Shown piece by piece: positions 4,906 through 31,151 of a stretch of 32,648 bases of DNA. The number at the start of each line of letters is the position of its first letter. Position 1 is the stretch's first letter. Under the pieces are notes generated by a model that searched no databases, was not told the DNA's origin, and was given only the letters and a program-made list of their open reading frames with translations. Position numbers and translations under genes: made by a program. The stretch is taken from positions 56,484 to 89,131 of the forward strand of contig PLTD01000168.1 in the NCBI GenBank assembly GCA_003165335.1, in the 5' to 3' direction. This DNA comes from Rhodospirillales bacterium. GTDB lineage: Bacteria; Pseudomonadota; Alphaproteobacteria; BOG-932; Roseiterribacteraceae.

Positions 4906-7608
4906 GTGGGAAAACATAAAATTGCGGGGCTATTGGCCTGCACGGCGGTCGCGGCGCTCTGCCATCCATCCGCTTTGGCGCAGCAGGCCGCCAGTCCGTC
5001 GGCATCAACCGGGGGAAACCTGGAAGAGATCGTCGTCACGGCGCAGAAGCGCAGCGAGAATCAGCAGGTCGTCCCGGTCGCGGTGACCGCGCTTAGCCCG
5101 GCCACCCTGGCGAACGCCAGAGTCGAGAATGTGATGGATCTGGCCGGCCTAGCGCCGAATCTTTATGTCTTCCAGGGCGCCTCATTGAACGGCAGCAATT
5201 CGACCCCGTGGCTGACCCTGCGCGGCATTGAGGCCAACAATACCGGCACGGTACAGACGGACAGCGGCATCGGCATGTATGTCGATGGCGTTTATCTCGC
5301 GCGCGCCAGCGGGCAGGTGTTCGACCTCGCCGACGTCGAGCAGATCGAGGTGCTGCGCGGGCCCCAGGGCACGCTCTTCGGGCGTAACTCCGTCGGCGGC
5401 GCCATCAACTTCATCACCAAGGACCCAACCGGCAAGTTTGGCGTCACCGAAGACCTGTCGTTCGGCAATCTGGGCGAGTTTCGCAACAAGACCATCGTCA
5501 ACTTCGACGAAATCGAAGGGTTGCGGATCGCCATCACGTATCTGCACTCACAGAACGATGGTTACGTTAAGAATTTGGACGCCGGTCACTATATCGATCC
5601 GTCGGCGCTGACGTTCGGCGCTCAAGGCCCGGGATATTCGGCGCGCAATCTTGGCTCGTCGAACGTCGACGCATTCATGGCCTCGCTCCGCTACGATCCG
5701 CCCGCGGTCGAGGGGCTGACCCTCAAATACAGGTTCGACTATACCGGGGAAGACCAGACGCCACCGCCAATCCAAATCCTGGAGGTCGGGTCATATGCAT
5801 ATCAGCTCTACCCCAAGCCGTACGGACTTGGCCTGTATGGTGCCTATGCTAGGGGCACGATCGTCGTCAGCCCGACTCCGCAATACGCGGTTTCCAACTC
5901 TGAGGCGATCCCGATTCATCTGAAATCCTGGGGCCAGAGCCTTACGACCGAGTACGCGCTTAACGACGCCATTCAGGTCAAGGATATCCTCGCCTATCGC
6001 GCACTGTCGCAAGATTTCGTCAGCCAGTTGGACGGCGGCAACGCCCTCAATGTCGCGCCCGGCGTCGATTTCCTACCCTTTACCAGCTTCGGCAAGGTCG
6101 ACCAGCATCAGTTGAGCAATGAGTTCGACGTCAACTTCAAGTCTGACTATGTGGATGTGACGGCGGGGCAACTCTATTTCTATGAGCAGTATCATTACCC
6201 CAACGGGTACGTCCCCTTCGCGGTCGCGCCCGGCGGCCTTCTTCCGGCTGGTGGGACGATCGGCGATGGCACGGCTACCAGCATCGCTGAATATGCCCAG
6301 TTGACGGGGCATGTCCTGGACAATCTCGACATCGTCGGCGGGCTTCGTTACACGCGCGACGACAAGCAATCGCGCTATCCACTCACGCCTCAGTATTCCG
6401 CTGAAGCCATCCACCAGCGAGTCGATTGGCTGGCCGGCGTAAACTACCGGCCGACCGACAATATTCTCGTCTACGGCAAGGGAAGCTCAGGCTATATCTC
6501 CGGCGGATCGGACAATGGCACCAGTTTTGGACCTGAATCGATCACCCAGTTCGAGGTCGGGGAGAAGGCCGACCTGCTCGACAAGCAACTCAGGGTCAAT
6601 ACCGCGGCCTTCTGGTCGGACTACCGGCATTACCAAACCTTCGACTTCAATCCGGCGGACTGCAACGGCGACGCTGCCGGCTGCATCGTGAATGCCGGCG
6701 CCGAGCGGATCTGGGGGCTCGAATCTGAAATTACCGCCGTACCGACGGAGCGCCTTCTGCTGTCGTTGAATATCGGCATTACCCGGTATTCGGTGGATCC
6801 CAACGGGAATCCGTCAGCCATCCCCGAGAATCATGCCCCCAAACTGCAACTGGGTGCATCCGGCCAGTATGATTTCCCGGATTTCCGGGGGATGACGCCT
6901 TCGGCCAGAGTGGAAGTAAACTATATGGGCCTGGTGAACTGGGGAACGGACGCTACTGCCGCCCCAGGAGGGATATCGACTTTCGTGACGCCGGCGCAGG
7001 TGATCGTGAATGCGCGTGTCAGCCTGGGGGACATCGCGTTGGGCCCGACGACGGGCAAGGTATCGCTATGGGGCAAGAACATAACCGACCAGCGCTATAT
7101 CTCCGAAGTGCTGCCGGGAGCGGTGATCGGCTTTGTCGACGCCAACGTCTCACCGCCGGCAACCTATGGCGTGGACCTCTCACTCAAATGGGGCGCGTCC
7201 TCCGCCCCGGCTGAAACGCCCGCGGCTTATACACCGCCGCCAATTCAGGCTCCGGCGCCTGCTCCGCACAGCTATCTTGTGTTCTTCGACTTCAACAAGT
7301 CGGACCTGACGCCGCAAGCAGTCGAGATCGTCGACACCGCGGCCAAGAACGCCGGGCCGGCAAAGGTGACCCAGCTTACCGTGACAGGTCACACGGATAC
7401 CGTCGGTTCGGACGCATACAATATGCGTCTATCCCGCCGCCGGGCGGAATCGGTCGCGGCGGAGCTCGAGAAGGATGGCATCCCGTCATCCGAAATCTCA
7501 ATCGTGGCCAAAGGCAAGCGTGACCTGCTGGTCCCGACCGGCGACGGAGTCCGCGAACCGCAGAACCGTCGCGTCCAGATCGTCTATGAAGGTGGCCCGA
7601 CCTCGTAG
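4906..7608 (+). CDS. TonB-dependent receptor fused to a C-terminal OmpA peptidoglycan-binding domain
   Basis: A 900-residue outer-membrane protein with an unusual architecture. Residues 1-25 are a signal peptide (cleavage after SALA); a TonB box-like EEIVVTAQKR is at 40-49; the plug domain follows, with VENVMDLAGLAPNL, QTDSGIGMYVDGVY and the VEVLRGPQGTLFGRNSVGGAINF signature; then a 22-strand barrel whose last part is WGKNITDQRYIS...VDLSLKWG. Instead of ending there, the chain continues through a Pro/Ala linker (about 762-787) into an OmpA-like domain (789-896): YLVFFDFNKSDL, VTGHTDTVGSDAYN, LSRRRAESV and NRRVQIVY. The peptidoglycan-contacting Asp (D831) and Arg (R846) are both present at the family spacing. 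I use GTG 4906, which has GGGGAGGA five bases upstream; ATG 4891 would add five residues. The substrate is unknown. The sequence is GC-rich and uniform, without a frameshift at the junction. Confidence 0.9.
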   Translation: MGKHKIAGLLACTAVAALCHPSALAQQAASPSASTGGNLEEIVVTAQKRSENQQVVPVAVTALSPATLANARVENVMDLAGLAPNLYVFQGASLNGSNSTPWLTLRGIEANNTGTVQTDSGIGMYVDGVYLARASGQVFDLADVEQIEVLRGPQGTLFGRNSVGGAINFITKDPTGKFGVTEDLSFGNLGEFRNKTIVNFDEIEGLRIAITYLHSQNDGYVKNLDAGHYIDPSALTFGAQGPGYSARNLGSSNVDAFMASLRYDPPAVEGLTLKYRFDYTGEDQTPPPIQILEVGSYAYQLYPKPYGLGLYGAYARGTIVVSPTPQYAVSNSEAIPIHLKSWGQSLTTEYALNDAIQVKDILAYRALSQDFVSQLDGGNALNVAPGVDFLPFTSFGKVDQHQLSNEFDVNFKSDYVDVTAGQLYFYEQYHYPNGYVPFAVAPGGLLPAGGTIGDGTATSIAEYAQLTGHVLDNLDIVGGLRYTRDDKQSRYPLTPQYSAEAIHQRVDWLAGVNYRPTDNILVYGKGSSGYISGGSDNGTSFGPESITQFEVGEKADLLDKQLRVNTAAFWSDYRHYQTFDFNPADCNGDAAGCIVNAGAERIWGLESEITAVPTERLLLSLNIGITRYSVDPNGNPSAIPENHAPKLQLGASGQYDFPDFRGMTPSARVEVNYMGLVNWGTDATAAPGGISTFVTPAQVIVNARVSLGDIALGPTTGKVSLWGKNITDQRYISEVLPGAVIGFVDANVSPPATYGVDLSLKWGASSAPAETPAAYTPPPIQAPAPAPHSYLVFFDFNKSDLTPQAVEIVDTAAKNAGPAKVTQLTVTGHTDTVGSDAYNMRLSRRRAESVAAELEKDGIPSSEISIVAKGKRDLLVPTGDGVREPQNRRVQIVYEGGPTS

Positions 7609-7810: not shown

Positions 7811-8032
7811 CTAATAATGCGGCGGCGGGGGTTCGGGGCCCTCGGGGGCGCCGGTGCTGTTCTCGAAATCACGCATCTGTTCGTTGAGCCGGGTCAGGCG
7901 GAAGGTCAGATCTTCGATCTGTTTCCACTGGTCGGCGATGGTCGAACTCAGCTCCTCGATCGTGTGGTCCTGATGCGCGATGCGGATTTCCAGCCCGTCG
8001 ATGCGCTCAGCCAGTATTTCGGTCTCAGTCAT
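7811..8032 (-). CDS. slyX: SlyX family protein
   Basis: A 73-residue protein of the usual SlyX length. The first 55 residues form a heptad-rich coiled coil (LAERIDGLEIRIAHQDHTIE then LSSTIADQWKQIEDL, LRRL-type repeats), and the C-terminus is the diagnostic PPPHY. SlyX is a conserved small cytoplasmic protein of unknown biochemical role. It stands alone, convergent with the TonB receptor and divergent from the GNAT gene. Confidence 0.9.
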   Translation of the reverse strand: MTETEILAERIDGLEIRIAHQDHTIEELSSTIADQWKQIEDLTFRLTRLNEQMRDFENSTGAPEGPEPPPPHY

Positions 8033-9087: not shown

Positions 9088-10374
9088 TTACCCCAGCCCG
9101 TAATGCACCACAAACAGGATGGCCAAAATCGCCATCGGCCAGCCGATCTCGCGGTAGCGGCCGGCAAGAAGCTTGATGCCCACATGGGCGATGAAGCCCA
9201 ACGCGATGCCGTTCGAGATTGAGAAGGTGAGCGGCATGGCCAGGGCCGTGACCAGGGCTGGGGCGTAATCGGTGGCGTCGTCCCAGGCGATTTCGGTCAG
9301 GCTGCGGACCATCAGACAGGCGACGAAGAGAAGCGCCGGGGCCGTCGCATAGGGCGGCACGCTGCCGGCCAAGGGCGCCAGGAACAGGCTGACGAGGAAA
9401 AGGGCTGCGACGGTGACGCCGACGAGCCCGGTGCGGCCGCCGGCCTTAACCCCGGCCGCGCTCTCAATATAGGACGTGACCGGAGAGGTGCCGAGCGCGG
9501 CACCCGCCAGGACCGAGAGCGAATCGGCCATAAGCACCTTGCGCAGCCGGGGCAGCGAGCCGTCGGGCCGAAGCAAGCCGGATTGATGGGCGACACCGAT
9601 CAGCGTGCCGGTCGAATCGAACAGATCGACGAAGAAGAAGGCGAGAATGACGGCACCGGCAGAGAGGCTGAAATTGCTCCTGAGGTCCATCGCCAGGAAG
9701 GTGGGGCCAAGACTGGGCGGCAGGGAAAAGACACCGCCGAAGGGCGAGATTCCGAGCGCGATCCCGGCGACGGTGACGCCCAGCACCGATATCAGAATCG
9801 CGCCGGGCACACGCCGCGCGTCCAGTGCCACCATCGCCACGAACCCCAAAGCGGCCAGAATGACCGAGGGGGAGCGCAGATTGCCCAGCGTGACGAACGT
9901 GTCCTTGTCGGCAACGACCAGCCCGGCGTTCTTGAGCGCGAGCAGCCCCAGAAACAGCCCGATACCAGCGGCGATCGCCATTTTCTGCGACCGCGGGATG
10001 CCGCCGATAATCCATTCCCTGAGTGGGGTCAGGCTGACGATCAGGAACAGAATGCCGGAGAGGAAGACCGCGCCAAGCGCGACCTGCCAGGGCTCGTGCA
10101 GGCCGATCACCACGCCATAGGTGAAATAGGCGTTGAGCCCCATGCCGGGGGCGAGCGCGATGGGATAGTTGGCATAGAGCGCCATGATTAGCGTGGCCAG
10201 CGCCGAGGCCAGGCAAGTGGCGACGAACACCGCCCCCTTGTCCATGCCCGCATCCGCCAGAATCAGCGGATTGACGAACATGATATAGGCCATGGTCAGA
10301 AAGGTAGTGAACCCGGCCGTAACCTCTGTCCGGACTGTGCTGCCCTGAGCGGTGATGGAGAAGAATCGGTCCAT
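9088..10374 (-). CDS. NCS2-family purine permease (AzgA/GhxP type)
   Basis: A 428-residue polytopic membrane protein of the NCS2 nucleobase:cation symporter family, subgroup of adenine/guanine/hypoxanthine permeases. Markers are the start MDRFFSITAQGSTVRTEV, the segment FTTFLTMAYIMFVNPLIL, NYPIALAPGMGLNAYF in helix 3, RSQKMAIAAGIGLFLGLLALKNAGLV in the middle, and the DLFDSTGTLIGVA and LAGAALGTSPVTSYIESAAGVKAGGRTGL segments that line the substrate site. It imports a purine base with protons. The frame reaches 10455 but the family start is ATG 10374. No purine-catabolism gene is next to it, and it is flanked on both sides by repeat-like DNA. Confidence 0.88.
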   Translation of the reverse strand: MDRFFSITAQGSTVRTEVTAGFTTFLTMAYIMFVNPLILADAGMDKGAVFVATCLASALATLIMALYANYPIALAPGMGLNAYFTYGVVIGLHEPWQVALGAVFLSGILFLIVSLTPLREWIIGGIPRSQKMAIAAGIGLFLGLLALKNAGLVVADKDTFVTLGNLRSPSVILAALGFVAMVALDARRVPGAILISVLGVTVAGIALGISPFGGVFSLPPSLGPTFLAMDLRSNFSLSAGAVILAFFFVDLFDSTGTLIGVAHQSGLLRPDGSLPRLRKVLMADSLSVLAGAALGTSPVTSYIESAAGVKAGGRTGLVGVTVAALFLVSLFLAPLAGSVPPYATAPALLFVACLMVRSLTEIAWDDATDYAPALVTALAMPLTFSISNGIALGFIAHVGIKLLAGRYREIGWPMAILAILFVVHYGLG

Positions 10375-10384
10375 CGGCGGATGG

Positions 10385-10470
10385 TGCATGATCAGCCGTA
10401 GTATGGGTAGAGCGCAGCGAAGCCCATAGACAAAATGGATACAGCAAGGCGCCAAGACACCAAGTTAAAG
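10385..10470. repeat. candidate dispersed repeat upstream of the permease
   Basis: The gap between the permease and the AtuA gene holds ATGGGTAGAGCGCAGCGAAG followed by CCCAT, where TGGG and CCCA flank the core, and then GGCGCCAAGACACCAAG, itself two near-copies of a CGCCAAGA unit. Both motifs resemble sequences recalled from proteobacterial dispersed intergenic repeats. No gene is supported here. Confidence 0.4.
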
Positions 10471-10496: not shown

Positions 10497-12296
10497 CTAG
10501 GGTGAAACCTTCCCGTCCCTTACCCAGCCGGCGGGAACTGCGATGGGGAAATCCATCAGCATCTGGGCGTGAGCCTTGCCCTGCGGGTCATAGCGCAGAG
10601 AGGCGACGCCGCCGCCGCCGAGCGAGGCGTTGAGGATGAAGTTGAAGCCGTTCAGCCCCGGCCAGTCGTAACGTTCGACCGTGCCTTCGACCACATGCGC
10701 CATATAGTTCTTCACCGCCTCGGGCGTCAGTTGCCCGGCGATGAGGTCACGGTACTCAGGCTTGCGGGCCAGGATCGCGATGTTGCTGAGGTTGCCCTTG
10801 TCGCCGCTGCGCCCATGGGCGAGTTCAACTAGTGGTACCGTCTTGGTGGCACCCGAGGGCGCAGAGGTCGGCGCCGCAGGCTTGGGCTGATAGGGCGGAA
10901 CAGCCTGGCCTTCGGTCGAGACCGAAACCGGGATGGTCTTGCCGTCGAGCTCGACCGAGATCTTCACCCGGGCCTTGTCCAGCAGGAAGGAATAGAGGCG
11001 CAGCACCGGCTGCACACTGGGGCGGCCGCCGGCGAAGCCGGAAATGCCCTGGCCCATGCCGGTGGCGGCAGGTGCGATCTCACGTGTGAAGATATCGACC
11101 GCCTTCTTGTCCATGTGACGCACGCCGACCTTGAGGATGACCTCACGCACCGACCGCGCCCGGCCGTGCGGGCCGTATGTCGCCTCTGCGCCCAGCACCT
11201 CGATCGAGGTGTCGACATAATCGCCCAGCCCTTCGCGGACGAAAATCAGGCTAGTGCGTTTCAGGATCGCCTCGCCCATCGCCTGGGCCTTCTCGGCGGC
11301 GTCGATGCCGTTGACCATCAGGGTAGCGATCGAACGGAAGCCCTCGGGGTAGGTGGCGCTGACCTTATAGGTAGGGGTCGGGGCCTTGCCGCGAACGTTT
11401 GTCACTTTGACACGGTCCTTGCCGACCTGTTCGACACGGACGCCCGACAGATCGCAAACCACATCGGGCAGGATGTAGTTGGCCGGGTCGCCAGTCTCAT
11501 AGGTGATCTGCTCGGCCACGGTCTGGGTCGAGACCAGACCGCCGGTGCCGTCCGGCTTGGTGACGATGAAGCTGCCGTCGGCGGCGCATTCGGCGATCGG
11601 GAAGCCGATATTGTGCCAGCCTTCGGCGACCAGCCGCCAGTCGGTGAAGATGCCGCCTGTGGCCTGCGGACCGCATTCGATGACATGGCCGGCCATGGTG
11701 CCGGAGGCTAGTTTATCAAAATCGGCCGCGGTCCAGCCGAATTCATAAATCAACGGCCCCAGCGCCAGCGCGCTGTCGGCGGCGCGGCCGGTGACGACGA
11801 TATCGGCCCCGGCAGCCAAGGCGGCCGCGATCGGAAAGGCGCCGATATAGGCATTGGCGGAGACGATTGTCTTGGGCAGCGGTGCGCCGCTCTGCACTTC
11901 CTTGACGCCCTCGGCCCGCAGTTCCTCGATCATGCCGTGGATATCGTCGCCGACGATGGCCGCGACCTTGAGGTTCACGCCCTGATCGGCCAGCACCTTG
12001 GCGACGGCGTCGCGGCAGGCGAGCGGATTGACGCCGCCGGCGTTGCACACGACCTTGATGCCGCGCTCGGCAATTTCCCGGGCGTAAGGACCGATGAACT
12101 GGGACACGAAATCGGGCGGATAGCCCATGGCCGGGTCCTTCGCCTTGGCCCGGGCCAGCAGCGACATGGTGATCTCCGCCAGATAGTCCATCACCAGGTA
12201 ATCGACCTGGCCGGACTTCACCAACTGCCGCGCGCCCTCGGGCGTATCGCCCCAAAAGCCCGACGCCCCGCCCAAGCGGACGATTTTATCGCTCAT
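10497..12296 (-). CDS. AtuA-family (DUF1446) protein with C-terminal ferredoxin-fold domain
   Basis: A 599-residue cytoplasmic protein. Residues 1 to about 450 match the AtuA/DUF1446 family: IVRLGGASGFWGDTPEGARQ at the start, VMDYLAEITMSLLARAK, VVCNAGGVNP, VVTGRAADSALALGPLIYEF and ATGGIFTDW. A Pro/Ala linker (about 470-490) leads to the AtuA-like C-terminal domain beginning VPLVELAHGRSGDKGNLSNI and ending LRYDPQGKAHAQMLMDFPI. AtuA proteins are needed for degradation of acyclic terpenes such as citronellol and occur in acyl-CoA catabolic operons, but the reaction of this family is not settled. It is the last gene of a tight leftward operon with SDR, aldehyde dehydrogenase and enoyl-CoA hydratase genes (gaps 30-50 bases). 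I avoid the symbol atuA because the genuine atu cluster partners (atuC/F carboxylase) are absent. Confidence 0.85.
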   Translation of the reverse strand: MSDKIVRLGGASGFWGDTPEGARQLVKSGQVDYLVMDYLAEITMSLLARAKAKDPAMGYPPDFVSQFIGPYAREIAERGIKVVCNAGGVNPLACRDAVAKVLADQGVNLKVAAIVGDDIHGMIEELRAEGVKEVQSGAPLPKTIVSANAYIGAFPIAAALAAGADIVVTGRAADSALALGPLIYEFGWTAADFDKLASGTMAGHVIECGPQATGGIFTDWRLVAEGWHNIGFPIAECAADGSFIVTKPDGTGGLVSTQTVAEQITYETGDPANYILPDVVCDLSGVRVEQVGKDRVKVTNVRGKAPTPTYKVSATYPEGFRSIATLMVNGIDAAEKAQAMGEAILKRTSLIFVREGLGDYVDTSIEVLGAEATYGPHGRARSVREVILKVGVRHMDKKAVDIFTREIAPAATGMGQGISGFAGGRPSVQPVLRLYSFLLDKARVKISVELDGKTIPVSVSTEGQAVPPYQPKPAAPTSAPSGATKTVPLVELAHGRSGDKGNLSNIAILARKPEYRDLIAGQLTPEAVKNYMAHVVEGTVERYDWPGLNGFNFILNASLGGGGVASLRYDPQGKAHAQMLMDFPIAVPAGWVRDGKVSP

Positions 12297-12326
12297 CGCA
12301 CATGCCCCAATTCAGCTTGGTCAATC

Positions 12327-13097
12327 TTACTTTGCGGTAAAGCCGCCATCGACCGGAATGGCGACGCCGGTGATATAGGCGGATTCGTCCGAGGCCAGGA
12401 ACAGCGCGGTGTTGGCGATATCCTCAGGCTTGGCAACGCGGCCCAGCGGAATCATGCCGACGAAGCGCTTTTGCGTTTCAGCCGCCTGATCGTCGCTGGC
12501 GTTACGGCCCATGAAGCCGCGCAGCATCGGCGTTTCGGTCAAGCCCGGGCAGATCACATTGACGCGGATCTGCTCAGGCCCATAGCGCAGCGACAGCGAC
12601 TTGCCGAGGCCAACGACGGCGAACTTGCCCGCCGAATAGAGCGGCGAAAGCTGAGACCCGACGATGCCGGAGATGGAAGCGGTCAAAATCACCGAGCCGC
12701 CGCCGCGCTTGCGGATATGCTTCACCGCCTCGCCGACCGTCAGGTAGCAGGACCGCACATTCAGCGACATGGAGAGTTCATAGTCGGCCAGGTCGATGTC
12801 CTCGACCACGTCAGTGCCGGGAATGCCAGCATGAGCCCAGAATATATCGATGCCGCCCAACTTATCAGCGGCGGCCGCGATGGAGCCGCGGCATTCTTGA
12901 GCGTTCGTCAGATCGGCGCGGAGCGCGCAGGCTGTGCCGCCGGCGGCCTTGATCTCTTCCGCGACCTGGATCGCAGCGGCTTCGTTGATGTCGATGATCG
13001 CGACCTTGGCGCCCTCCTTGGCGAACAGCAGGGCCGCCGCCCGCCCCATACCCGACGCACCGGCGGTGATGACCGCCAATTTTCCCTTCAATCGCAC
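12327..13097 (-). CDS. SDR-family NAD-type oxidoreductase
   Basis: A 256-residue classical short-chain dehydrogenase. The nucleotide-binding motif GASGMGR is at 13-19, Asp36 at the end of strand 2 suggests NAD rather than NADP, HAG replaces NAG at 89-91, Ser141/143 precede the catalytic Tyr154 and Lys158 (YSAGK), and CPGLTETPM and a VDGG C-terminus follow. It would oxidise an alcohol or hydroxyacyl substrate in the same pathway as its operon neighbours. The start is a GTG with GGGGAA six bases upstream. It lies 30 bases before the AtuA-family gene and 38 after the aldehyde dehydrogenase. Confidence 0.88.
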   Translation of the reverse strand: MRLKGKLAVITAGASGMGRAAALLFAKEGAKVAIIDINEAAAIQVAEEIKAAGGTACALRADLTNAQECRGSIAAAADKLGGIDIFWAHAGIPGTDVVEDIDLADYELSMSLNVRSCYLTVGEAVKHIRKRGGGSVILTASISGIVGSQLSPLYSAGKFAVVGLGKSLSLRYGPEQIRVNVICPGLTETPMLRGFMGRNASDDQAAETQKRFVGMIPLGRVAKPEDIANTALFLASDESAYITGVAIPVDGGFTAK

Positions 13098-13134
13098 GCT
13101 GCTTCCCCTGTCTTAAGGTTCGTTGGCCCGACGC

Positions 13135-14613
13135 TTATTGAGCGTAGGCGTCGGCATAATTGCCGGTCAGATTAATGATCGTGGACTTGGTTTCGAAATA
13201 AGGCTCAAGCCCTTCCGAACCGTTTTCACGGTTGAGGCCGCTGATCTTGTAGCCGCCGTAGGGGATGTTGTAGCGCAGATAGCGATAGGTATTGACCCAG
13301 ACCATGCCGGCCTGAATTTGCGCCGCGACGCGATGGGCGCGGCCGACATTCTGAGTCCAAAGACCGGCGACCAGTCCATATTCGGTGTCGTTGGCTATGG
13401 CGACCGCCTCTTCCTCGGTCTTGAACTTGATGACGCCGACGACCGGCCCGAAGATTTCCTCCCGAGCGATCCGCATCGAGTTGGTGACATCGGCGAAGAC
13501 TGTCGGCTTTACGAAATAGCCGTCGCCCATCGAATTGATCCGCTCGCCGCCGACGACCAGACGGGCGCCTTCGTTGCGGCCGATATCGAGATAGCGCAGC
13601 GTCTTCTGGAGCTGTTCGTCGTGGGCTTGCGGCCCCATCTGGGTCGAAGGGTCCAGCGCATTGCCGATCCGAACGCGGGTCGAGCGGCTGGCGATTTCAT
13701 TCACGACCTTGTCGTAGACGCTTTCATGAACCAGCAGGCGGGAGCCGAGCGCGCAACTCTGGCCACAGAGCGCGAAGGCGCTGTGGGTCGCGGCATTGAT
13801 CGCCTGCTCGAGGTCGGCGTCGTCGAAGATGATATGCGGGGACTTGCCGCCGGTTTCGAACGACAGCCGCTTCAGGTTGACCGACGCGCCCTTCATGATC
13901 TCCATCGCCGTGCGATGCTCGCCGGTGAAGGAAATCTTATTGACGCCGAGATGACCGACCAGATGGGCGCCGGCCGTGGAACCCAGACCCGGCACGACAT
14001 TGATGACGCCGGGCGGCACGCCGGCTTCCGCCGCCAGCTTGGCCAATTCGAAAGCGGTGATCGGGGTCTGCTCGGCCGGTTTGATGACCATTGTGCAACC
14101 GGCAGCCAGGGCGGGCGCCATCTTCCACATTACGGTCTGCAGCGGTGCGTTCCAGGGCGTGATCATACCGACCACGCCGACGGGCTCGCGTGTCGTATAG
14201 ACATGGACCGACGGGTCCAACTGGATGTTGCGGCCGCTGATGTTCGCCGCCAGACCCGAGTAGTAATAATAATACTGCGGGTGCCCGGCGATGCCGGCCC
14301 GGCTGTCGCGGATCGGCATGCCGTTGTCGCTGGATTCCAATTCCGCCAGACGCCCTGCATTGGCGGCATAGAGGTCCCCCAACCTGCGCAGGATATTTGA
14401 ACGGTCCGTTCCGCTCATCTTGCGCCAGGGGCCTCGGAAGGCCTCGTTCGCCGCAGTCACGGCACGATCGATGTCCGCCGTGCCGGCATAGGCGGCAGTT
14501 GCCCATTCCTTGCCGGTCGAGGGGTTGATCGAGGCAACGACCTCACCATCCGTAGGCGCGACCCATTCGCCGCCTATGAACAGCTTCTCATGACGCAGCA
14601 AATCTTCGGACAT
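13135..14613 (-). CDS. NAD(P)-dependent aldehyde dehydrogenase
   Basis: A 492-residue ALDH-superfamily enzyme. Key residues are Asn155 (ITPWN), Lys178 (MVIKPAEQTP), catalytic general base Glu253 (SFETGGKSP) and nucleophile Cys287 (GQSC). IFGPVVGVIKF and the C-terminal oligomerisation strand follow. It oxidises an aldehyde to the acid, possibly the product of the adjacent SDR. Two small oddities are visible: the usual FTGSTEVGR segment reads FTGEHRTA, and there is a run of five Tyr at 114-118. ATG 14613 is chosen because GGGAG lies eight bases upstream; ATG 14628 sits on that site. It is in the leftward operon headed by the hydratase gene. Confidence 0.9.
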   Translation of the reverse strand: MSEDLLRHEKLFIGGEWVAPTDGEVVASINPSTGKEWATAAYAGTADIDRAVTAANEAFRGPWRKMSGTDRSNILRRLGDLYAANAGRLAELESSDNGMPIRDSRAGIAGHPQYYYYYSGLAANISGRNIQLDPSVHVYTTREPVGVVGMITPWNAPLQTVMWKMAPALAAGCTMVIKPAEQTPITAFELAKLAAEAGVPPGVINVVPGLGSTAGAHLVGHLGVNKISFTGEHRTAMEIMKGASVNLKRLSFETGGKSPHIIFDDADLEQAINAATHSAFALCGQSCALGSRLLVHESVYDKVVNEIASRSTRVRIGNALDPSTQMGPQAHDEQLQKTLRYLDIGRNEGARLVVGGERINSMGDGYFVKPTVFADVTNSMRIAREEIFGPVVGVIKFKTEEEAVAIANDTEYGLVAGLWTQNVGRAHRVAAQIQAGMVWVNTYRYLRYNIPYGGYKISGLNRENGSEGLEPYFETKSTIINLTGNYADAYAQ

Positions 14614-14664
14614 TTCCCATTCTCCCAATAGCGCGCAGGGCTGCCCCCTATCGCGCAGAACTGA

Positions 14665-15429
14665 TTAGCGGCCTTTCCAGACGGGCGCACGCTTTTCGGC
14701 GAAGGCTCTCGGACCTTCCTGAGCGTCCTCACTGAGATAGGCGGAGTCGAATGCGGCACGCGCGGCCTCGAGCGCAGCAGAGCGGCCCATCTCGGTCGCC
14801 ATATAGACCGACCGGCGGCAGGCCTGGACAGTCAGGGGGGCGTTGGCTGCGATCAGGTTCGCCATCTTCAGGGCTTCATCCAGCAGGTCGGCCAAGGGCA
14901 CGACCTTATTGATATAACCGAGTTCATACAGGCGCTGAGCGGGGAACGGCGCCGCGGTCAGTAGGATTTCCATCATCACGCGCTGCGGCAGCATGTGGAT
15001 CAGCGGCGTCGCCCAGGGCGAACCGCGACCGACTTTGGCCTCGGTGATGCCGAAGGTCGCGTGGTCGGCGGCGATGCAAAGGTCGCACATTTGCGAGATC
15101 AAAAAGCCACCGGCAAAGGCGACGCCATTGACGGCGGCGATGGTCGGCTTGGTGACGACGACATTGTCGCCGATCACAGGAACCAGACCGCGCGGCGGAA
15201 TGCGCAATGTCGTCGCGCTCATTTCCTTCAAATCCATGCCGGCGCAAAACGCCTTCTCACCGGTGCCGGTCAGGATCGCGACCTTGGCTTCCGGGTCCTT
15301 CTCGAAGCGGTCCCAAGCATCCCACAGGCCCTGGCGGACAGCGATGCCCAGCGCATTGCGGCGATCGGGCTGATTGATCGTGATGACTGCGACCTGGCCC
15401 TTCATTTCGTACAAAACTGCGTCCGACAT
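14665..15429 (-). CDS. enoyl-CoA hydratase/isomerase (crotonase) family protein
   Basis: A 254-residue crotonase. The oxyanion-hole segments AFCAGMDL (60-67) and AVNGVAFAGGF (99-109) and the C-terminal APVWKGR tail are present. One of the two catalytic acids of true hydratases is at Glu130 (GITEAKVG), but the first one is not: the usual GGG-x-EL segment reads GGFLIS. That suggests a different crotonase reaction (isomerase, hydrolase or lyase) rather than simple hydration; this is inference from residues. It is the first gene of the leftward operon, has a GAGAGGA ribosome site, and follows the IclR regulator after 120 bases. Confidence 0.85.
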   Translation of the reverse strand: MSDAVLYEMKGQVAVITINQPDRRNALGIAVRQGLWDAWDRFEKDPEAKVAILTGTGEKAFCAGMDLKEMSATTLRIPPRGLVPVIGDNVVVTKPTIAAVNGVAFAGGFLISQMCDLCIAADHATFGITEAKVGRGSPWATPLIHMLPQRVMMEILLTAAPFPAQRLYELGYINKVVPLADLLDEALKMANLIAANAPLTVQACRRSVYMATEMGRSAALEAARAAFDSAYLSEDAQEGPRAFAEKRAPVWKGR

Positions 15430-15470
15430 CCCCTAGTCCTCTCTAGCATGCCGCCCGGCGAGCCCCGCTC

Positions 15471-15537
15471 AACCGGTTCACGGCGGTGGACACCTATGTG
15501 CAGTTTGATGAACGGAGTCAACCGACCGCGACCGGTT
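15471..15537 (-). promoter_or_regulatory. candidate promoter/IclR operator for the crotonase-ALDH-SDR-AtuA operon
   Basis: In the 120-base gap between the IclR gene and the operon, the minus strand has TTGACT (15521-15516), a possible -35, overlapped by an inverted repeat AACCG-n8-CGGTT at 15520-15537. A perfect AACCGGTT palindrome lies further downstream at 15471-15478. The two share the half-site AACCG. Palindromes overlapping a promoter fit binding by the adjacent IclR-type protein, but the -10 is poor and binding is inferred. Confidence 0.4.
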
Positions 15538-15549
15538 TTTGAGTGACGC

Positions 15550-16290
15550 TCAGCGCACCGAATTCGCAGTATAGGCGCGCACCGCGTCACGCATCATCGG
15601 GCCGAGATCGGCCATCCGCCGCTCCATCCGAAAAGTCGGCCCGGCGACCGCCAACGACAACGGACGTCCGGCCAAGGGCAGCATCACGGCCAGCCCCAGC
15701 ACATCGGGCGTGAATTCCGTCGCTCCCTGGAACCAGCCCTGGGATAATCCCCGCGCAATCTCCGCTTCGACCGCAGCGATGCTCATCGGTGAGGACGGTT
15801 GGTATCGTTCGAACTTGATCTTTGCCAACAGGCTCTGCCGTTCAGATGGGGAATATTGAGCCAAAATCGCCCTGCCGGTTGCCGTGGCGTGGATGGGCAA
15901 GCGCTTTCCCACCTCGGCGAAATAGCGAATCACCGAATCGGATTCGACAACGTCGAGAAACACCACACGATCGCCGGCCGGTGCAGCGACATGCACCGTC
16001 TCGCCGGTATCCTTCGCCAGGTCGAGCAGCAAACGATGCAGCGACGGCGGAAGCGGCTCCGCCTCGGCGACGGCACGTGACAGTACGAGCCAGCGGGGAG
16101 TCGGATAATAGCCGGCACGCGGCCTGGGTTCGTAGAGAAATCCCCGCTCGACCAACGTCCCCACCATGTTGAAGGTGCTGGAGCGCGGCCAGCCGAATTC
16201 CTGCGCAATCTCCGATAGGGTCGCGGGTCGCCTGATGCGCGCGAAATACTCGAGTATGTCGAGCACATTTGCGGCTTGTTTGACGATCAT
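15550..16290 (-). CDS. IclR-family transcriptional regulator
   Basis: A 246-residue regulator of usual IclR length. The N-terminal winged helix (about 1-65) includes QAANVLDILEYFA, ATLSEIAQEFGWPRSSTFNMVGTL and a GYYPTPRWL wing. The C-terminal effector domain has the family marks VFLDVVESDSVIRYFAEVGKRLPIH with ATATGRAILA. The effector is probably an intermediate of the pathway encoded by the four genes directly downstream on the same strand. The frame extends to 16428, but the extra N-terminus has no family similarity; ATG 16290 fits. It is divergent from the DUF4105 gene, with an 80-base gap. Confidence 0.88.
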   Translation of the reverse strand: MIVKQAANVLDILEYFARIRRPATLSEIAQEFGWPRSSTFNMVGTLVERGFLYEPRPRAGYYPTPRWLVLSRAVAEAEPLPPSLHRLLLDLAKDTGETVHVAAPAGDRVVFLDVVESDSVIRYFAEVGKRLPIHATATGRAILAQYSPSERQSLLAKIKFERYQPSSPMSIAAVEAEIARGLSQGWFQGATEFTPDVLGLAVMLPLAGRPLSLAVAGPTFRMERRMADLGPMMRDAVRAYTANSVR

Positions 16291-16369
16291 TTCTGGGCGC
16301 GCGGCAAAGTCATGGGCGGAACATACCGACCGGTTGTGGAACGGCAAGCCTCGCGGGTACAACCGGACC

Positions 16370-17392
16370 ATGCTGGTCATGGAATTCGCCTTTATCGGCC
16401 TGTCGGCAATCTGGTGCCTGCTCGCCATCCATTATTCCGATCCGTCGGCGGGCTCGGACAGGCGCATACGGCGCAAAACGGCGTTAGCCGCCTGTGTCGC
16501 GATTCCGGCCCTGTCGATTGTCTTTCTGCCATCTGGCACGGCGACCGTCATTTCAGCCGCCATTCTGGCGGTCACTCTCATCTGGTTCGTGCGCCTGTCG
16601 CCGCATGATCGCGGCGATTGGGAAACCGAATATGCGCGCATGCCCGAGGTCGAGGAGGATGGGAACCTGATCAAGGTCAAGGGCGTCCGCGATTTCAGAT
16701 ATCGCAGCGTCGAGGATGTGATTCCAGCCTATTACGATGACGCCTACGACACCGACAGTGTAACCAGTATCGACCTTATCTGCTCATACTGGTCGGGCCG
16801 CGCGATTGCGCATGTGTTCCTCAGCTTCGGCTTCGCGGACGGGCGGCACGTGGCGATATCGGTCGAGACGCGGCGGCGACGGGGTCAGCCTTATTCGACC
16901 ATCGCCGGCTTCTTCCGGCACTATCAATTGATCTTCGTGGTCGCCGACGAGCGCGACCTGATCGGCGTGCGTACCGACATCCGTCGGGAAGAGGTCTATC
17001 TCTACCAGCTGCGTACGACCGCCGACGAGCGCAGACGGCTGTTCCGCGGCTATATGGAGCGCGCCGCCAAGCTGGCGCGGGAGCCGGAATTCTACAATAC
17101 CGTCTTCAATAACTGCACCAGCAACATCGTCTCGCTGATCGATGGCGGCCTGCCGCGGGGTGAGCGCCTGGGCATGAGTTGGCGGCTGCTGTTCAGCGGC
17201 TATGCCGACGAATTCGCCTATGACATCGGCCGTCTGAAAAGTCGGACGACGTTCGCCGAGTTGAAACGGCGAAGCCTGGTCGTGCGCCAAGCGAATGCGG
17301 TGATCGGGGCGGATTTCTCGGCCGCTATCCGATCGGGATCTCCGGCACTGCCAAGCGCGATGAGCGCAACCCCGTCAGCGCGATCAGGCTGA
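16370..17392 (+). CDS. DUF4105 (Lnb N-terminal periplasmic-like) membrane protein
   Basis: A 340-residue protein with three N-terminal membrane helices (FAFIGLSAIWCLLAIHY, ALAACVAIPALSIVFL, VISAAILAVTLIWFV within residues 1-85) and a large domain of the DUF4105 type. Family signs are VKGVRDFRYRS, AHVFLSFGFADG with VAISVETRR, and the strongly conserved FYNTVFNNCTSNIV (about 242-255), in which the Cys is thought to be catalytic-like. The biochemical role is not established; related domains occur with lipoprotein acyltransferase Lnb. Its last 68 bases overlap the 3' end of the transporter gene on the other strand. ATG 16379 is an alternative start. Confidence 0.8.
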   Translation: MLVMEFAFIGLSAIWCLLAIHYSDPSAGSDRRIRRKTALAACVAIPALSIVFLPSGTATVISAAILAVTLIWFVRLSPHDRGDWETEYARMPEVEEDGNLIKVKGVRDFRYRSVEDVIPAYYDDAYDTDSVTSIDLICSYWSGRAIAHVFLSFGFADGRHVAISVETRRRRGQPYSTIAGFFRHYQLIFVVADERDLIGVRTDIRREEVYLYQLRTTADERRRLFRGYMERAAKLAREPEFYNTVFNNCTSNIVSLIDGGLPRGERLGMSWRLLFSGYADEFAYDIGRLKSRTTFAELKRRSLVVRQANAVIGADFSAAIRSGSPALPSAMSATPSARSG

Positions 17393-21195: not shown

Positions 21196-21270
21196 TGGCT
21201 GGGGCGGGAGGATTCGAACCTCCGGATGCCGGTACCAAAAACCGGTGCCTTACCGCTTGGCGACGCCCCA
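21196..21270 (-). tRNA. tRNA-Gln (anticodon TTG)
   Basis: Read on the minus strand this 75-base segment folds as a tRNA: acceptor TGGGGCG/CGCCCCA with the U1-A72 pair typical of tRNA-Gln, D arm CCAAGCGGTAAGGC, anticodon stem ACCGG/CCGGT around the loop TTTTTGG-type with anticodon TTG, T arm with GGTTCGAATCC, discriminator G and an encoded CCA end. It reads CAA (and CAG by wobble) codons. Confidence 0.95.
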
Positions 21271-21485: not shown

Positions 21486-22382
21486 ATGCCTAAAATAGCC
21501 ATCGGTGTGTATGGGCTACAGCGCTGGTTCGACGGCGATTTTGCGCCCGTCGTCGATGTCGTGCGCCACGCCGACGAGGCGGGCATCGATCAAGTGAGCA
21601 TTACCGACCATGTGGTCATGGGCGAACATCTGGAAAACTATCCCTATGGTCCGTTCCGCGACGGGCTTGAGGCACCCTGGTACGAGCCGGTGACCGCTCT
21701 CGCCGCCTTTGCCGGAGCGACGAAAAAAATTCGCCTCTCGATGGGAATTCTTATCGCGCCGCTGAGGCCCGCCGTTTTGCTGGCAAAGCAATTGGCAACA
21801 TTGGATGTCCTATCCCGCGGTCGTGTCGACGTCGGTCTGGGACTGGGTTGGCAGAAAGAGGAATACGATGCGGCCGGCGTTCCGTGGGAGGGACGCTATG
21901 GCCGCATGGAGGAACAGATTCGGGTTTGCAAGGCTCTCTGGACCCAGGCACCGGCGGAGTTTCATGGTAAAACCGTGTCCTTCGAGAAGATCCACGCCTA
22001 TCCGCGCCCGGTACAAAGTCCACTGCCTATCTGGTTCGGCTTAGCGCCGACAGAGAAGAATTTTGCCCGTATCGCCGAATTGGGCGACGGCTGGATACCG
22101 ATGGAGAACGAGCCCGAAAAGTTGGCGCCTCATGTCGACAATCTGCGTAGTGCGTTTAAAGCCGCCGGGCGCGATCCCGCCAAGATCGATGTGCGGGTGG
22201 TCGCCCCATATGTCTTCCGTGAGGACTACAGCTGCGACCTGGAAGCGACGCTTGCGAAGATACCGGCGCTGGTGAAGGCCGGCGTCACGGTGGTCGAATT
22301 TCACCCGCTGTATCTTTGTGCCGGCCCGGACGATCTCGATCGCTTCTTTGGCGCCATACTGGCCGCGAAATCGGCAAAATGA
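21486..22382 (+). CDS. LLM-class flavin/F420-dependent oxidoreductase (TIGR03619-like)
   Basis: A 298-residue luciferase-like TIM-barrel oxidoreductase. Family signs are IAIGVYGLQRWF at strand 1, VRHADEAGIDQVSITDHVVM, LSMGILIAPLRPAVLLAKQLATLDVLSRGRVDVGLGLGW with the WQKEEYDAAGVPWEGRYGRMEE stretch, and PLPIWFGL with GDGWIPM near the end. Such enzymes use FMN or F420; the cofactor cannot be decided here. It opens a rightward catabolic cluster: its stop overlaps the next ATG by four bases (ATGA), so the NTF2-like gene is translationally coupled to it. Confidence 0.85.
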   Translation: MPKIAIGVYGLQRWFDGDFAPVVDVVRHADEAGIDQVSITDHVVMGEHLENYPYGPFRDGLEAPWYEPVTALAAFAGATKKIRLSMGILIAPLRPAVLLAKQLATLDVLSRGRVDVGLGLGWQKEEYDAAGVPWEGRYGRMEEQIRVCKALWTQAPAEFHGKTVSFEKIHAYPRPVQSPLPIWFGLAPTEKNFARIAELGDGWIPMENEPEKLAPHVDNLRSAFKAAGRDPAKIDVRVVAPYVFREDYSCDLEATLAKIPALVKAGVTVVEFHPLYLCAGPDDLDRFFGAILAAKSAK

Positions 22383-22822
22383 GCGACACAGATTTGTCTC
22401 TAATGCGCGATGAATGGGCTCTGCGCAAACTCGCCATGACATATGCCCGGTGCGTCGATCGTGGCGATGGCCCTGGTTTTGCTGCACTGTTCACAGAGGA
22501 TGCCGCTGTCGAAGGACCGGGATTCAGAGTTCAGGGCTATGTCGAGATTTCCGGAAACCCGGGCATGCTGAAGCAGATGTATAAGTCGACGATGCACGCG
22601 ATAATGAATCACACCGTAACGGTCACCGGCGACACGGCCGAAGGCGAGACCTACTGCATCGCCCATCACATCAATCATCCTGAGAATGGGATTTACACCC
22701 GGCTGGATTGGGCAATTCGCTACCAGGACAAATATGTCCGGCGGAAAGGCCAATGGCTTTACCAGCATCGCCAACTGCTGGTCGAATGGACCGAAGTTTC
22801 GCCGGTCACCATGATCGGCTGA
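22379..22822 (+). CDS. NTF2/SnoaL-like protein (ketosteroid isomerase-like fold)
   Basis: A 147-residue small alpha+beta-barrel protein of the SnoaL/nuclear transport factor 2-like superfamily. The signature is visible in ALRKLAMTYARCVDRGDGPGFAALFTEDAAVEGPGF, then MHAIMNHTVTVTGDTAEGETYCIAHHI and the C-terminal YVRRKGQWLYQHRQLLVEW. Members include isomerases, dehydratases, cyclases and hydrolases of hydrophobic ring compounds, so a substrate cannot be named. Its start overlaps the LLM gene stop (ATGA), and an SDR gene follows after 45 bases. Confidence 0.82.
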   Translation: MSDTDLSLMRDEWALRKLAMTYARCVDRGDGPGFAALFTEDAAVEGPGFRVQGYVEISGNPGMLKQMYKSTMHAIMNHTVTVTGDTAEGETYCIAHHINHPENGIYTRLDWAIRYQDKYVRRKGQWLYQHRQLLVEWTEVSPVTMIG

Positions 22823-22867
22823 TATCGGCATTAGTTTCAAAGTAGAAAAATCTTCGGGGAAAGAGTT

Positions 22868-23710
22868 ATGAGCGGAAATAATGCATTAGCGGGCAAAACC
22901 GCTTTCGTGACCGGCGGCGCGGGCGGCATCGGCTCAAATTGCGCCAAGCTGTTGTTGCGCGACGGCGCGGCGGTTCTCATCATGGGCCGCAGGAAGGATG
23001 CGTTAGAGAAGACGAAGGCTTGGCTGCTGGAATCTGTGCCTAACGGCAAGGTCGAGATCCACGCCGGCGACGCCTGCGAAGAAAAAGATGTGCGAGCAGG
23101 TTTGGACAAGGCCTTCGCTATGCAGGGCAGGCTCGATATCATCGTCCCGACAGTCGGCGGCGGGGGCTTCAAGCCACTGCTGATGCTGGATGCCGATACT
23201 TTCCGCGCCGAACTGAACGTCAATATCATCAGCGCGTTCCTGGCTGTGCGTTACGGTGTCCCGATGATGGAAGGCGGATCGATCGTCTGCATCTCATCGA
23301 CCGCAGCGACACTGCCATTCGCCTATCTGCCGGCCTATCACACATCCAAGGGCGGGCTGGAAAACTTCGTTAGGGCCGCCGCGGAAGAATTGGGTTCGGC
23401 TGGAGTCCGCGTCAATGCAGTGCGCCCCGGATTAACCCGTAGTGACGCAACCGGACCGATGTTCGCCAGCCCGGATATCCTCGACCGTTTCGTCGCCGAG
23501 TTCCCGTTGGGGCGTGCAGGTGAACCTGAGGATATCGCCGAGGCGGTGCGCTATCTGGCCGGACCGGAATCTTCGTGGGTCACCGGTCAAAGCTTTGCCG
23601 TCGACGGCGGCAATGAGATTCGCAAGAATCCCGACCTGTCCGACATGATCGCCCTGATGTTCGGTCAAGAAGCGCTGGACACGGTCAAGCGCGGCAAGTC
23701 CCCGGTATGA
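22868..23710 (+). CDS. SDR-family oxidoreductase, paralogue 1
   Basis: A 280-residue short-chain dehydrogenase. TGGAGGIG (15-22) binds the dinucleotide and Arg41-Arg42 after strand 2 suggest NADP. Ser143/144, Tyr157 and Lys161 (YHTSK) form the catalytic set. The usual NNAG segment is replaced by VPTVGGGGF, which is unusual and is shared only with the third SDR of this cluster. The chain has a C-terminal extension past VDGG (NEIRKNPDLSDMI...VKRGKSPV), also shared with that paralogue. Its stop overlaps the ATG of the next SDR by four bases. Confidence 0.88.
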   Translation: MSGNNALAGKTAFVTGGAGGIGSNCAKLLLRDGAAVLIMGRRKDALEKTKAWLLESVPNGKVEIHAGDACEEKDVRAGLDKAFAMQGRLDIIVPTVGGGGFKPLLMLDADTFRAELNVNIISAFLAVRYGVPMMEGGSIVCISSTAATLPFAYLPAYHTSKGGLENFVRAAAEELGSAGVRVNAVRPGLTRSDATGPMFASPDILDRFVAEFPLGRAGEPEDIAEAVRYLAGPESSWVTGQSFAVDGGNEIRKNPDLSDMIALMFGQEALDTVKRGKSPV

Positions 23711-24480
23711 GCGCGGAGCCGATCTGGGCCAACGTCCGCTTCGATTATAGCGGGCGGCATGTGCTGGTCGTCGGCGGGACCAGCGGCATCGGCGGTGCAA
23801 CCGCCCGCGCCTACCGCGAGGCCGGCGCCACGGTGACGATTACCGGCCAGCGCCCGAGTTTGGCCGATTACGAAGGCCTGGCCGGCTTCGGCTATCACAA
23901 GTTGGATGTTACCGGGACCGACGACATGGCGACGGTCGCGGATGCTCTGCCCGCGCTCGACATATTGGTCAACAGCGCCGGTGTCGGCTGGGTCGGCGGC
24001 GGCCAAGGCGAACATGAATATGAGCCGGAGATTTTCGATAAGGCGATCAGGATGCATCTGACCGGGCCGTACCGGATGGCGGATGCCTGTCATTCCAAGC
24101 TGTCGCAGAGCACACTGCCGGGCGGCGCGAGCATTATCGGCATCGCCTCGATGACCTCGTTCTTCGGCAACGAGGTCGTGCCGGGCTATGGCGCGGCGAA
24201 GGGCGGGCTGGTGCAGATGGTCAAGACGCTGGCGATCCACTGGGCGCGCGCGAATATCCGGGTCAACGCCGTTGCGGCTGGATTGACGGAAAGCGCGATG
24301 ACGGCGTGGATGCTCGATATTCCCGAAGCAGTGGGGCCCACTTTGGAGCGCACGCCGCTGGGCCGAATCGGTCGAGCGGAAGATGTCGCCGGGGCGGTGC
24401 TGTTTTTGACCAGTGCAGCCGCCGGCCATATCACAGGCCAGACGGTCGTTGTCGATGGCGGATATTCGATCTTCGGATAA
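23707..24480 (+). CDS. SDR-family oxidoreductase (middle gene)
   Basis: A 257-residue classical short-chain dehydrogenase, clearly different from its two neighbours. GGTSGIG (23-29), a normal NSAG (89-92), Ser148, Tyr161 and Lys165 (YGAAK), and a C-terminal VVDGGYSIFG are present. A 15-residue N-terminal extension precedes strand 1. It starts inside the stop codon of the preceding SDR (ATGA), so the two are probably made together. The reaction is likely oxidation or reduction of an alcohol/ketone in the same route as the LLM enzyme. Confidence 0.88.
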   Translation: MSAEPIWANVRFDYSGRHVLVVGGTSGIGGATARAYREAGATVTITGQRPSLADYEGLAGFGYHKLDVTGTDDMATVADALPALDILVNSAGVGWVGGGQGEHEYEPEIFDKAIRMHLTGPYRMADACHSKLSQSTLPGGASIIGIASMTSFFGNEVVPGYGAAKGGLVQMVKTLAIHWARANIRVNAVAAGLTESAMTAWMLDIPEAVGPTLERTPLGRIGRAEDVAGAVLFLTSAAAGHITGQTVVVDGGYSIFG

Positions 24481-24509
24481 AGCGTCCGGTTCAAAATTAA
24501 GGTGACGGC

Positions 24510-25355
24510 ATGAGCGACAATCGGCCTTTGGCAGGTATGACTGCGCTGGTCACCGGAGCCAGCGGTGGCATCGGTTCGGCGTCGGCAGAACTGCTGCTGC
24601 GCGACGGGGCGACGGTGGTGATACTGGCGCGCCGCCCGGACGTGCTGGAGGAAACCCGCGCCGAGTTGATCGCCGCCGTGCCTGACGGCCGTGTAGAGCT
24701 GTTCGTTGGCGACGGTATGGCCGAGGACGACGTCAAGGCCGCGCTGGCCAAGGCGCATGCCATCGCCAACCGCCTCGACATTGTCGTCGCCACGGTGGGC
24801 GGCGGCAATGGCTTCAAGCCGATGATGATGCTGGACGCGCAAACCTTCCGCGACCAGTTCGACCGCAATGTCGTCAGCGCCTTCCTCGCGATCCGCCATG
24901 GGGCGCAGCTGATGCAGCCGGGCGGTTCAATCGTATGCATCTCGTCTACCGCCGCGAAATTGCCGTTCGGCGGCCTCGCCGCTTACCATACCGCCAAGGG
25001 AGCATTGGAAAACTTGGTGCGTGCGGCGGCCGAAGAACTGGGCTCAGCCGGCATACGGGTCAATGCGGTGCGGCCGGGGCTGACGCGCAGCAAGCGGGTC
25101 AGTTACCTGTTTACCGACAACTCGATCTTCGACAAGTTTCTCGATGAATTCCCGATCCGGCGCGCCGGTATGCCGATCGATATCGGCCAGGCTGTACGCT
25201 ATCTGGCCGGGCCCGAATCGTCCTGGGTGACTGGTCAAAGCTTCGCGGTCGACGGCGGGCAGGAACTCCGTAAGAATCCCGACCTTTCGGACATGATCGA
25301 AGAAACAGTGGGGGCCGAAGCGATGGCCGCGGTTAAGCGCGGCAAGATTCCTTGA
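24510..25355 (+). CDS. SDR-family oxidoreductase, paralogue 2
   Basis: A 281-residue short-chain dehydrogenase closely matching the first SDR of the cluster over its full length: TGASGGIG (15-22), Arg41-Arg42, ATVGGGNGF in place of NNAG, SSTAAKLPF, Tyr159 and Lys163 (YHTAK), VRAAAEELGSAG-RVNAVRPGLTRS, YLAGPESSWVTGQSFAVDGG and the same RKNPDLSDMI tail. It must have arisen by tandem duplication. Its stop is 7 bases before the left attachment site of the integrated element, so the element marks the present end of this cluster. Confidence 0.9.
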   Translation: MSDNRPLAGMTALVTGASGGIGSASAELLLRDGATVVILARRPDVLEETRAELIAAVPDGRVELFVGDGMAEDDVKAALAKAHAIANRLDIVVATVGGGNGFKPMMMLDAQTFRDQFDRNVVSAFLAIRHGAQLMQPGGSIVCISSTAAKLPFGGLAAYHTAKGALENLVRAAAEELGSAGIRVNAVRPGLTRSKRVSYLFTDNSIFDKFLDEFPIRRAGMPIDIGQAVRYLAGPESSWVTGQSFAVDGGQELRKNPDLSDMIEETVGAEAMAAVKRGKIP

Positions 25356-26145: not shown

Positions 26146-26979
26146 TCATTCACGCACCCTCACCCGCCGTAACGGCTGTGACAGTTCGCTTTCATCGTCG
26201 GTCGCGGCAGACACCCGAACGAACTTGAGCACAGCCTCGGCGTCGGCCCGCCAGTGCAAGACCGGCGCGTTGAAGGTGGAACGCCGCCGATTCTCGTCAC
26301 CTCTCAGGGCCTCGATGCCCCGCCTCTCCAGGCGGCCCGCCGCCGGCCCGAGTTTCACCTGTGGCAAGACCTCCGGTGCGCCGTTCGCCCGCGCCTGGCG
26401 AGCGTGGCTTCTGTGATCGATCATGGGCAATCCGCGACGACGGAGAGCCTCGGAGCAAAGTTCCGCCCATTTCTCGCGCCACGCTTCAATGTGCCCGCGC
26501 CCATATTGCCGCAGGTCGAGTTCGCGCGTCTTCTCACCGAAAGTGCCGGCGACATCTACGCGCCTGACTGTCAGCATCAGATGCGCGTGATGCGCCCGCG
26601 CGTCGCTGCCCTTGGGCGGCTCGTGCAAGGCCCAATCACCCGCGACGCTGTGCCGGCAACACAGCCACGCGCTGAAATCCTGCGTGATGCGTTGCCGTTC
26701 GGCCGGGGAAAGCTCATGTGGAAGGGCAACGACTAGTTCGCGAGCGACGACCGCGTTCCGCTTCCGCTCTGCCGCTTCCGCCGTGTTCCAGAGCGATGAT
26801 CGCGCCCCACTCCGGCCAACAATGCCTGTCTCGATGACACCTAGCCGCCGCCGAAAATCGAATGTCTCGCCCGTTCGCTCGTCGCGGATACGCTCCCCGC
26901 GCCGGTATGCGGCGGCAGCGGTCGCGCTTCTGCCTGTGGCACGGCTGATGGTTTGGACTGCGAGAAAGAAAATCGCCAT
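26146..26979 (-). CDS. MobA/MobL-family relaxase (MOBQ), compact form
   Basis: A 277-residue conjugative relaxase. It opens with MAIFFLAVQTISRATGRSAT and AAAAYRRGERI, where Tyr25 is the likely nicking residue of the family, followed by LWNTAEAAERKRNAVVAREL and the HUH metal site HHAHLML (130-136). It nicks one DNA strand at oriT and stays covalently attached to the 5' end during transfer. It is shorter than many MobA/MobL proteins, because there is no helicase or primase extension. oriT lies directly upstream on the opposite side, and the small mobilisation protein is divergent from it across that gap. Confidence 0.85.
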   Translation of the reverse strand: MAIFFLAVQTISRATGRSATAAAAYRRGERIRDERTGETFDFRRRLGVIETGIVGRSGARSSLWNTAEAAERKRNAVVARELVVALPHELSPAERQRITQDFSAWLCCRHSVAGDWALHEPPKGSDARAHHAHLMLTVRRVDVAGTFGEKTRELDLRQYGRGHIEAWREKWAELCSEALRRRGLPMIDHRSHARQARANGAPEVLPQVKLGPAAGRLERRGIEALRGDENRRRSTFNAPVLHWRADAEAVLKFVRVSAATDDESELSQPLRRVRVRE

Positions 26980-31077: not shown

Positions 31078-31151
31078 TGGTTGGGGGACGTGGATTCGAA
31101 CCACGATAAACAGAGTCAGAGTCTGTTGTCCTACCGTTAGACGATCCCCCA
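31078..31151 (-). tRNA. tRNA-Gln (anticodon CTG), integration target
   Basis: The minus strand reads as a 74-base tRNA: acceptor TGGGGGA/TCCCCCA (U1-A72), D arm with AACGGTAGG, anticodon stem CAGA/TCTG around loop CTCTGAC giving anticodon CTG, T arm CGTGG-TTCGAAT-CCACG, discriminator A and encoded CCA. It reads CAG codons. The gene is complete because the inserted element supplies its 3' end again. Confidence 0.93.

Follow-up and report, generated by a model that had tools for sequence, protein, structure and literature searches.

What is an OmpA-type domain doing at the end of a TonB-dependent receptor? The question is raised by a gene at 4906-7608 (+ strand) of the window, by which we mean the whole stretch of 32,648 nucleotides analysed. 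Translation gives a single open frame of 900 amino acids without an internal stop, and the gene contains no base N. The GTG at 4906 is favoured as the start because GGGGAGG sits 6 nt 5′ of it; an ATG at 4891 is in frame and leads to the same stop at 7608. A signal peptide ending in ...HPSALAQ (4906-4983) was assigned by eye from the translation. The TonB box, EEIVVTA (residues 40-46, 5023-5043), was also read from the translation; it follows the signal peptide, close to the mature N-terminus, and is conserved in relatives. Three Pfam domains score above their curated cut-offs: the plug (PF07715, residues 54-166, E = 1.4e-14, 54.9 bits against a cut-off of 23.9; domain at 5065-5403), TonB_dep_Rec_b-barrel (PF00593, residues 297-725, E = 3.1e-29, 103.6 bits) within the barrel at 5440-7194, and OmpA (PF00691, residues 793-888, E = 1.5e-19, 70.5 bits against 27.2) within the domain at 7267-7587. 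The last barrel strand (7162-7194) has an aromatic residue shortly after it, a beta-signal that is now internal, and gives way to the Pro/Ala linker AAYTPPPIQAPAPAP (7195-7266), which is of the same type as in other fusions and has low pLDDT. The original prediction of plug, barrel, linker and OmpA domain in one frame is therefore borne out. With about 135 residues beyond the last strand, where a receptor chain would normally end, the protein is a variant architecture among TonB-dependent receptors. It is no classical OmpA or OprF either, as the N-terminal barrel is that of a 22-strand receptor and not of eight strands.

A full-length AlphaFold model, built with 14 relatives, has 22 barrel strands, the last at residues 758-768 (counted from the ATG), followed by a disordered linker and an alpha/beta domain of low confidence. 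Foldseek matched the barrel best to FyuA, and also to Fiu, PqqU and FecA. When the tail was folded alone with 35 relatives the pLDDT rose to 81.5, and this model matched Pal, OprF and A. baumannii OmpA (3td3, 3td4 and 3td5), with bound diaminopimelate or peptide. No PDB chain found by sequence match spans both the receptor and the OmpA parts. As the number of strands is even and the plug is periplasmic, the model supports a periplasmic location of the tail; the linker is predicted to leave the barrel on that side, as had been supposed, and the C-terminus does not end up outside the cell. The two residues predicted to hold diaminopimelate, Asp-831 (7396-7398, equivalent to D271 of A. baumannii OmpA) and Arg-846 (7441-7443, equivalent to R286), are both in place and 15 residues apart as originally noted, and these positions are Asp and Arg in all 74 related tails. 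A degenerate or decoy OmpA domain was rejected on the strength of these invariant ligand residues. Their retention favours peptidoglycan as the ligand, and on this sequence evidence we would expect the tail to bind it. OmpA-like domains can also bind proteins, and the fold matches include Pal-TolB and YfiB-YfiR entries, which might suggest a partner other than peptidoglycan, such as a Tol, TonB or BAM component. The invariant Asp and Arg argue against this, as does the closeness of the tail to the classical OmpA tail of the same genome, and we regard such a partner as very improbable.

Could the joint between receptor and tail be an error? A frame error or chimera in the window gene was considered and rejected. 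In an independent assembly, its ortholog (L255) joins barrel, linker and tail in the same way, and the isolate Roseiterribacter gracilis TMPK1 (G003, BOPV01000001.1) encodes a fusion of 882 aa without interruption, near 732,400-735,060 of a 4.23 Mb contig; an error of frame or assembly at this locus is thus very unlikely. A broader artefact can be imagined, in which contigs were misjoined at near-identical tails, since the tails are repeats, some contigs end in or near them and the assembly of the window's genome (G000, 5.19 Mb) consists of 265 contigs. The intact fusion of the isolate contradicts this, the ortholog shares the linker as well as the joint, and the tails differ from one another at many sites. 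We give the artefact next to no credence.

The surroundings of the gene may bear on its substrate. Catabolic genes occupy 10500-16428 (- strand) and 21486-25352 (+ strand) of the window and encode an AtuA-type acyclic terpene utilisation protein, an aldehyde dehydrogenase, an enoyl-CoA hydratase, short-chain dehydrogenases, an IclR regulator and a luciferase-like monooxygenase. These genes perhaps point to a terpenoid or a related compound as the receptor's substrate, though they do not lie next to the receptor gene. Downstream of the receptor a small SlyX-like ORF (7811-8032, - strand) was recognised by eye. A MobA/MobL relaxase-type gene (26149-26979, - strand) lies among apparently chromosomal genes; together with the tRNA-Gln genes at 21196-21270 and 31078-31151 it is possibly the remnant of an integrated mobile element. 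A sequencing adapter had been suspected in the translation of the ORF at 9088-10455; none was found there.

The window receptor is one of many. Profile searches of its genome returned 33 OmpA-domain matches, and, counting TonB-dependent receptors from 550 aa upwards, about 21 of 44 are fused to an OmpA tail. Twenty of these tails are whole, one of them on a receptor frameshifted in the barrel (L159), and the remaining receptor (L191) is cut off inside the tail by the end of its contig. In the congener, the metagenome-assembled genome (MAG) RYN_452 (G002, 64 plug domains), about 27 of 54 receptors are fused, one with a stop before the tail. Five fused receptors follow one another on contig C234 of the window's genome (L161, C234:14500-34400). 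The same locus holds a decayed orphan tail (about 5100-5601) that is broken by stops and frameshifts and may be what is left of a sixth. In the receptor at L272:1304-4030, one in-frame stop interrupts the linker just ahead of an otherwise intact OmpA tail. Other barrel classes carry the tail too. Pfam identified it on autotransporter beta-domain proteins (L172, and L044 in the congener), on a PagL-type barrel (L175) and on a classical 8-strand outer-membrane protein (OMP_b-brl, L176). In two BBP2 porins (L173 and L174, contigs C217 and C55) the OmpA module is N-terminal, before the barrel. The single fusion first reported thus stands, and has turned out to belong to a genome-wide family with tail exchange.

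This inventory bears directly on function. The original prediction proposed that the anchor resists the pull of TonB or fixes the receptor's position, and a TonB-specific anchor, resisting or using that pull, would suit a tail placed on a complete receptor with a TonB box, in a genome where TonB receptors bear most of the copies. Yet the autotransporter, PagL, porin and 8-strand proteins carry the same tail, 23 of the 44 receptors do without it, and one fused receptor (L157) has an ortholog (L296) that is 80% identical and unfused. A mechanical role specific to TonB is therefore unlikely to be the main role of the tail, and we consider this explanation improbable. The other half of the proposal fares better: fixing of position, or a general tethering of membrane to wall, fits the distribution of the tail over barrel classes.

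Beyond these two genomes the fusion becomes rare. TMPK1, an isolate with slender filterable cells, has one fused receptor against 47 plug domains, and RYN_451 (G004) one against 52. With the exception of TMPK1, the fusion-bearing genomes of the family are fragmented drafts, at least three of them metagenome-derived; RYN_452, RYN_451 and a further relative, BOG_genome_mining.73 (G001), are MAGs. The search for receptor and OmpA domain in one chain, proposed with the original prediction, was run over samples of 385 alphaproteobacterial and 398 Pseudomonadota genomes, and the full-length profile matched through the tail only in the window's own family. Among the matches listed from beyond the family, all stop at the barrel or cover the OmpA domain only; scoring took in the best two candidates of each genome, so that a rare fusion may exist elsewhere. 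Outside the family, the nearest OmpA tails are those of ordinary OmpA-type proteins, most of them about 310-475 aa long. One fused receptor (L039) lies on a contig in a MAG labelled Acidobacteria, which is probably a binning error involving DNA of the window's family, or a transfer. We found no description of a fusion of TonB receptor and OmpA domain in the titles or abstracts of the open-access literature searched.

How did so many receptors come by the same tail? A tree of 108 receptors mixes fused and unfused barrels, with 21 changes of label, of which at least 16 are forced by well-supported branches; it is a quick tree in which some branches are long, which leaves the exact number uncertain, and as some unfused labels may be losses the changes do not give the number of gains. 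A single ancestral fusion followed by simple duplication does not fit the polyphyly of the fused barrels. Between orthologs the state is mostly stable: in 21 reciprocal best pairs, both members are fused in 11, neither in eight, and two differ. In L296, the unfused ortholog of L157, the chain stops at the last strand, where L157 runs on into the linker. We searched 3′ of L296, of the second unfused ortholog (L313) and of three other genes (L164, L193 and L201), and found no tail remnant except the complete tails of neighbouring genes; gain or loss has thus been traceless at the loci checked. Two further loci (L315 and L312) are simply cut off by contig ends within the tail or linker.

As to the source, L176, a classical OmpA gene, falls outside the tails of the TonB receptors in the DNA tree, and its tail is 71% identical to that of the window receptor. 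A gene of this type is the likely donor. The fusion shared by TMPK1 and RYN_451 may be an independent one, as its tail clusters with OmpA genes of its own genus and its barrel sits with an unfused receptor; alternatively the tail may have been homogenised there. Frequent gain or loss could also reflect ordinary domain shuffling, with an OmpA tail joined by duplication and recombination and tolerated at little functional consequence, and the broken tails (the in-frame stop in L272 and the orphan in L161) would fit. Tails that are in frame and highly conserved in amino-acid sequence, with Asp and Arg invariant in 74 of 74, speak against it, as does the retention of the architecture in 11 of the 13 orthologous pairs with a fused member. 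Shuffling of this kind strikes us as a shade less plausible than the TonB-specific anchor.

The tails have a history separate from that of their barrels. Among the fusions of the window's genome, median amino-acid identity is about 94% in the tails and 26% in the barrels. In a tree built from the DNA of 74 tails, clustering mostly follows the genome and not the orthology of the barrels. When orthologous receptors of the window's genome and RYN_452 were paired, the tail was nearer to a same-genome paralog than to the ortholog in nine of ten pairs, with nucleotide identities of 90-93% to the paralog against 79-85% to the ortholog; the barrels of orthologs are 71-74% identical (eight pairs measured). 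Along paralogs, identity stays close to background in the barrel (0.25-0.4 before the linker), rises within the linker, reaches 0.7-0.93 in the tail and drops to 0.25 right after the stop, so that the homogenised block spans linker to stop codon. The window's own tail is the exception, being 89% identical to its ortholog and 82% to its best paralog. With that exception, paralogs resemble one another more than orthologs do over a bounded block, which is the pattern of concerted evolution. Since the tails are alike within a genome over this block and the barrels have diverged, the data indicate gene conversion confined to the tail, homogenising the copies within each genome.

Taken together, we consider it likely that the OmpA module on many barrels serves as a distributed, non-covalent tether between outer membrane and peptidoglycan, spread and homogenised as a tail. 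Each barrel would insert in the outer membrane, with its linker running from the last strand into the periplasm, where the OmpA domain would bind the diaminopimelate of peptidoglycan non-covalently. Tagged barrels would then provide many protein points at which membrane and wall are tied together, and would themselves stay held in place; the points would be many because roughly half of the TonB receptors bear the tail, as do several further classes of barrel. The tail itself would derive from a classical OmpA gene and would have been gained or lost on barrels many times, with gene conversion from linker to stop codon keeping the copies alike within a genome. In this soil-bacterial lineage the outer membrane is thus probably tied to the wall through many of its own proteins. 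On balance, though with somewhat less assurance, we also favour the wider proposition that the lineage has made the OmpA domain an exchangeable tail of its outer-membrane proteome, by which barrels are pinned while gene conversion keeps the tails alike. A Pal-like gene (L203) is also present, so the tails would not be the sole tether, and competence to bind diaminopimelate would not by itself make an OmpA domain the main tether. E. coli assembles its new outer-membrane proteins where peptidoglycan is being synthesised (PMC9242858); by analogy, this is a setting in which tails could fix the position of a protein.

If correct, this would be a proteome-wide non-covalent tether distinct from Lpp, Pal, OmpM and LD-transpeptidase links, with a bearing on how bacteria without Lpp hold their outer membrane and on whether the wall fixes outer-membrane proteins. 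A natural test is at hand in dozens of related receptors, some with the tail and some lacking it, among them the 80% identical orthologous pair; to these the cultured relative TMPK1 adds its one fusion among 47 plug-domain receptors. The architecture implies that an internal beta-signal with a folded periplasmic domain behind it is tolerated by receptor barrels. The tails, for their part, are a clear example of what looks like gene conversion restricted to a C-terminal domain, among paralogs that have diverged widely.

Among known systems, classical OmpA and OprF (an 8-strand barrel with PF00691) share the barrel, the Pro-rich linker and an OmpA domain with the diaminopimelate-binding Asp and Arg, but in the present proteins a 22-strand TonB-dependent receptor, or a barrel of another class, forms the membrane part. 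Receptors of the FyuA, Fiu and FecA type share the TonB box, plug and 22-strand barrel, whereas here the chain continues past the last strand into an extra periplasmic domain predicted to bind the wall. Photosystem I PsaB (PDB 7f4v, from what we take to be Gloeobacter) is also a large membrane protein with an OmpA-like C-terminal domain, though not an outer-membrane barrel. In Negativicutes, the portion of PMC5491611 drawn on here describes a wall-binding SLH domain on the OmpM porin, or C-terminal on trimeric autotransporters; the layout is of the same kind, a wall-binding domain fused to a porin or placed after an autotransporter barrel, but the SLH domain binds a polyamine-modified wall in another phylum, and TonB receptors are not among the carriers described in that portion. 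LD-transpeptidases of Agrobacterium, Brucella and Coxiella tether beta-barrel proteins covalently to peptidoglycan (PMC11527210). There, too, several barrels serve as wall tethers in bacteria without Lpp, alphaproteobacteria included (PMC11527210); that link is enzymatic and covalent, whereas here a fused binding domain would serve.
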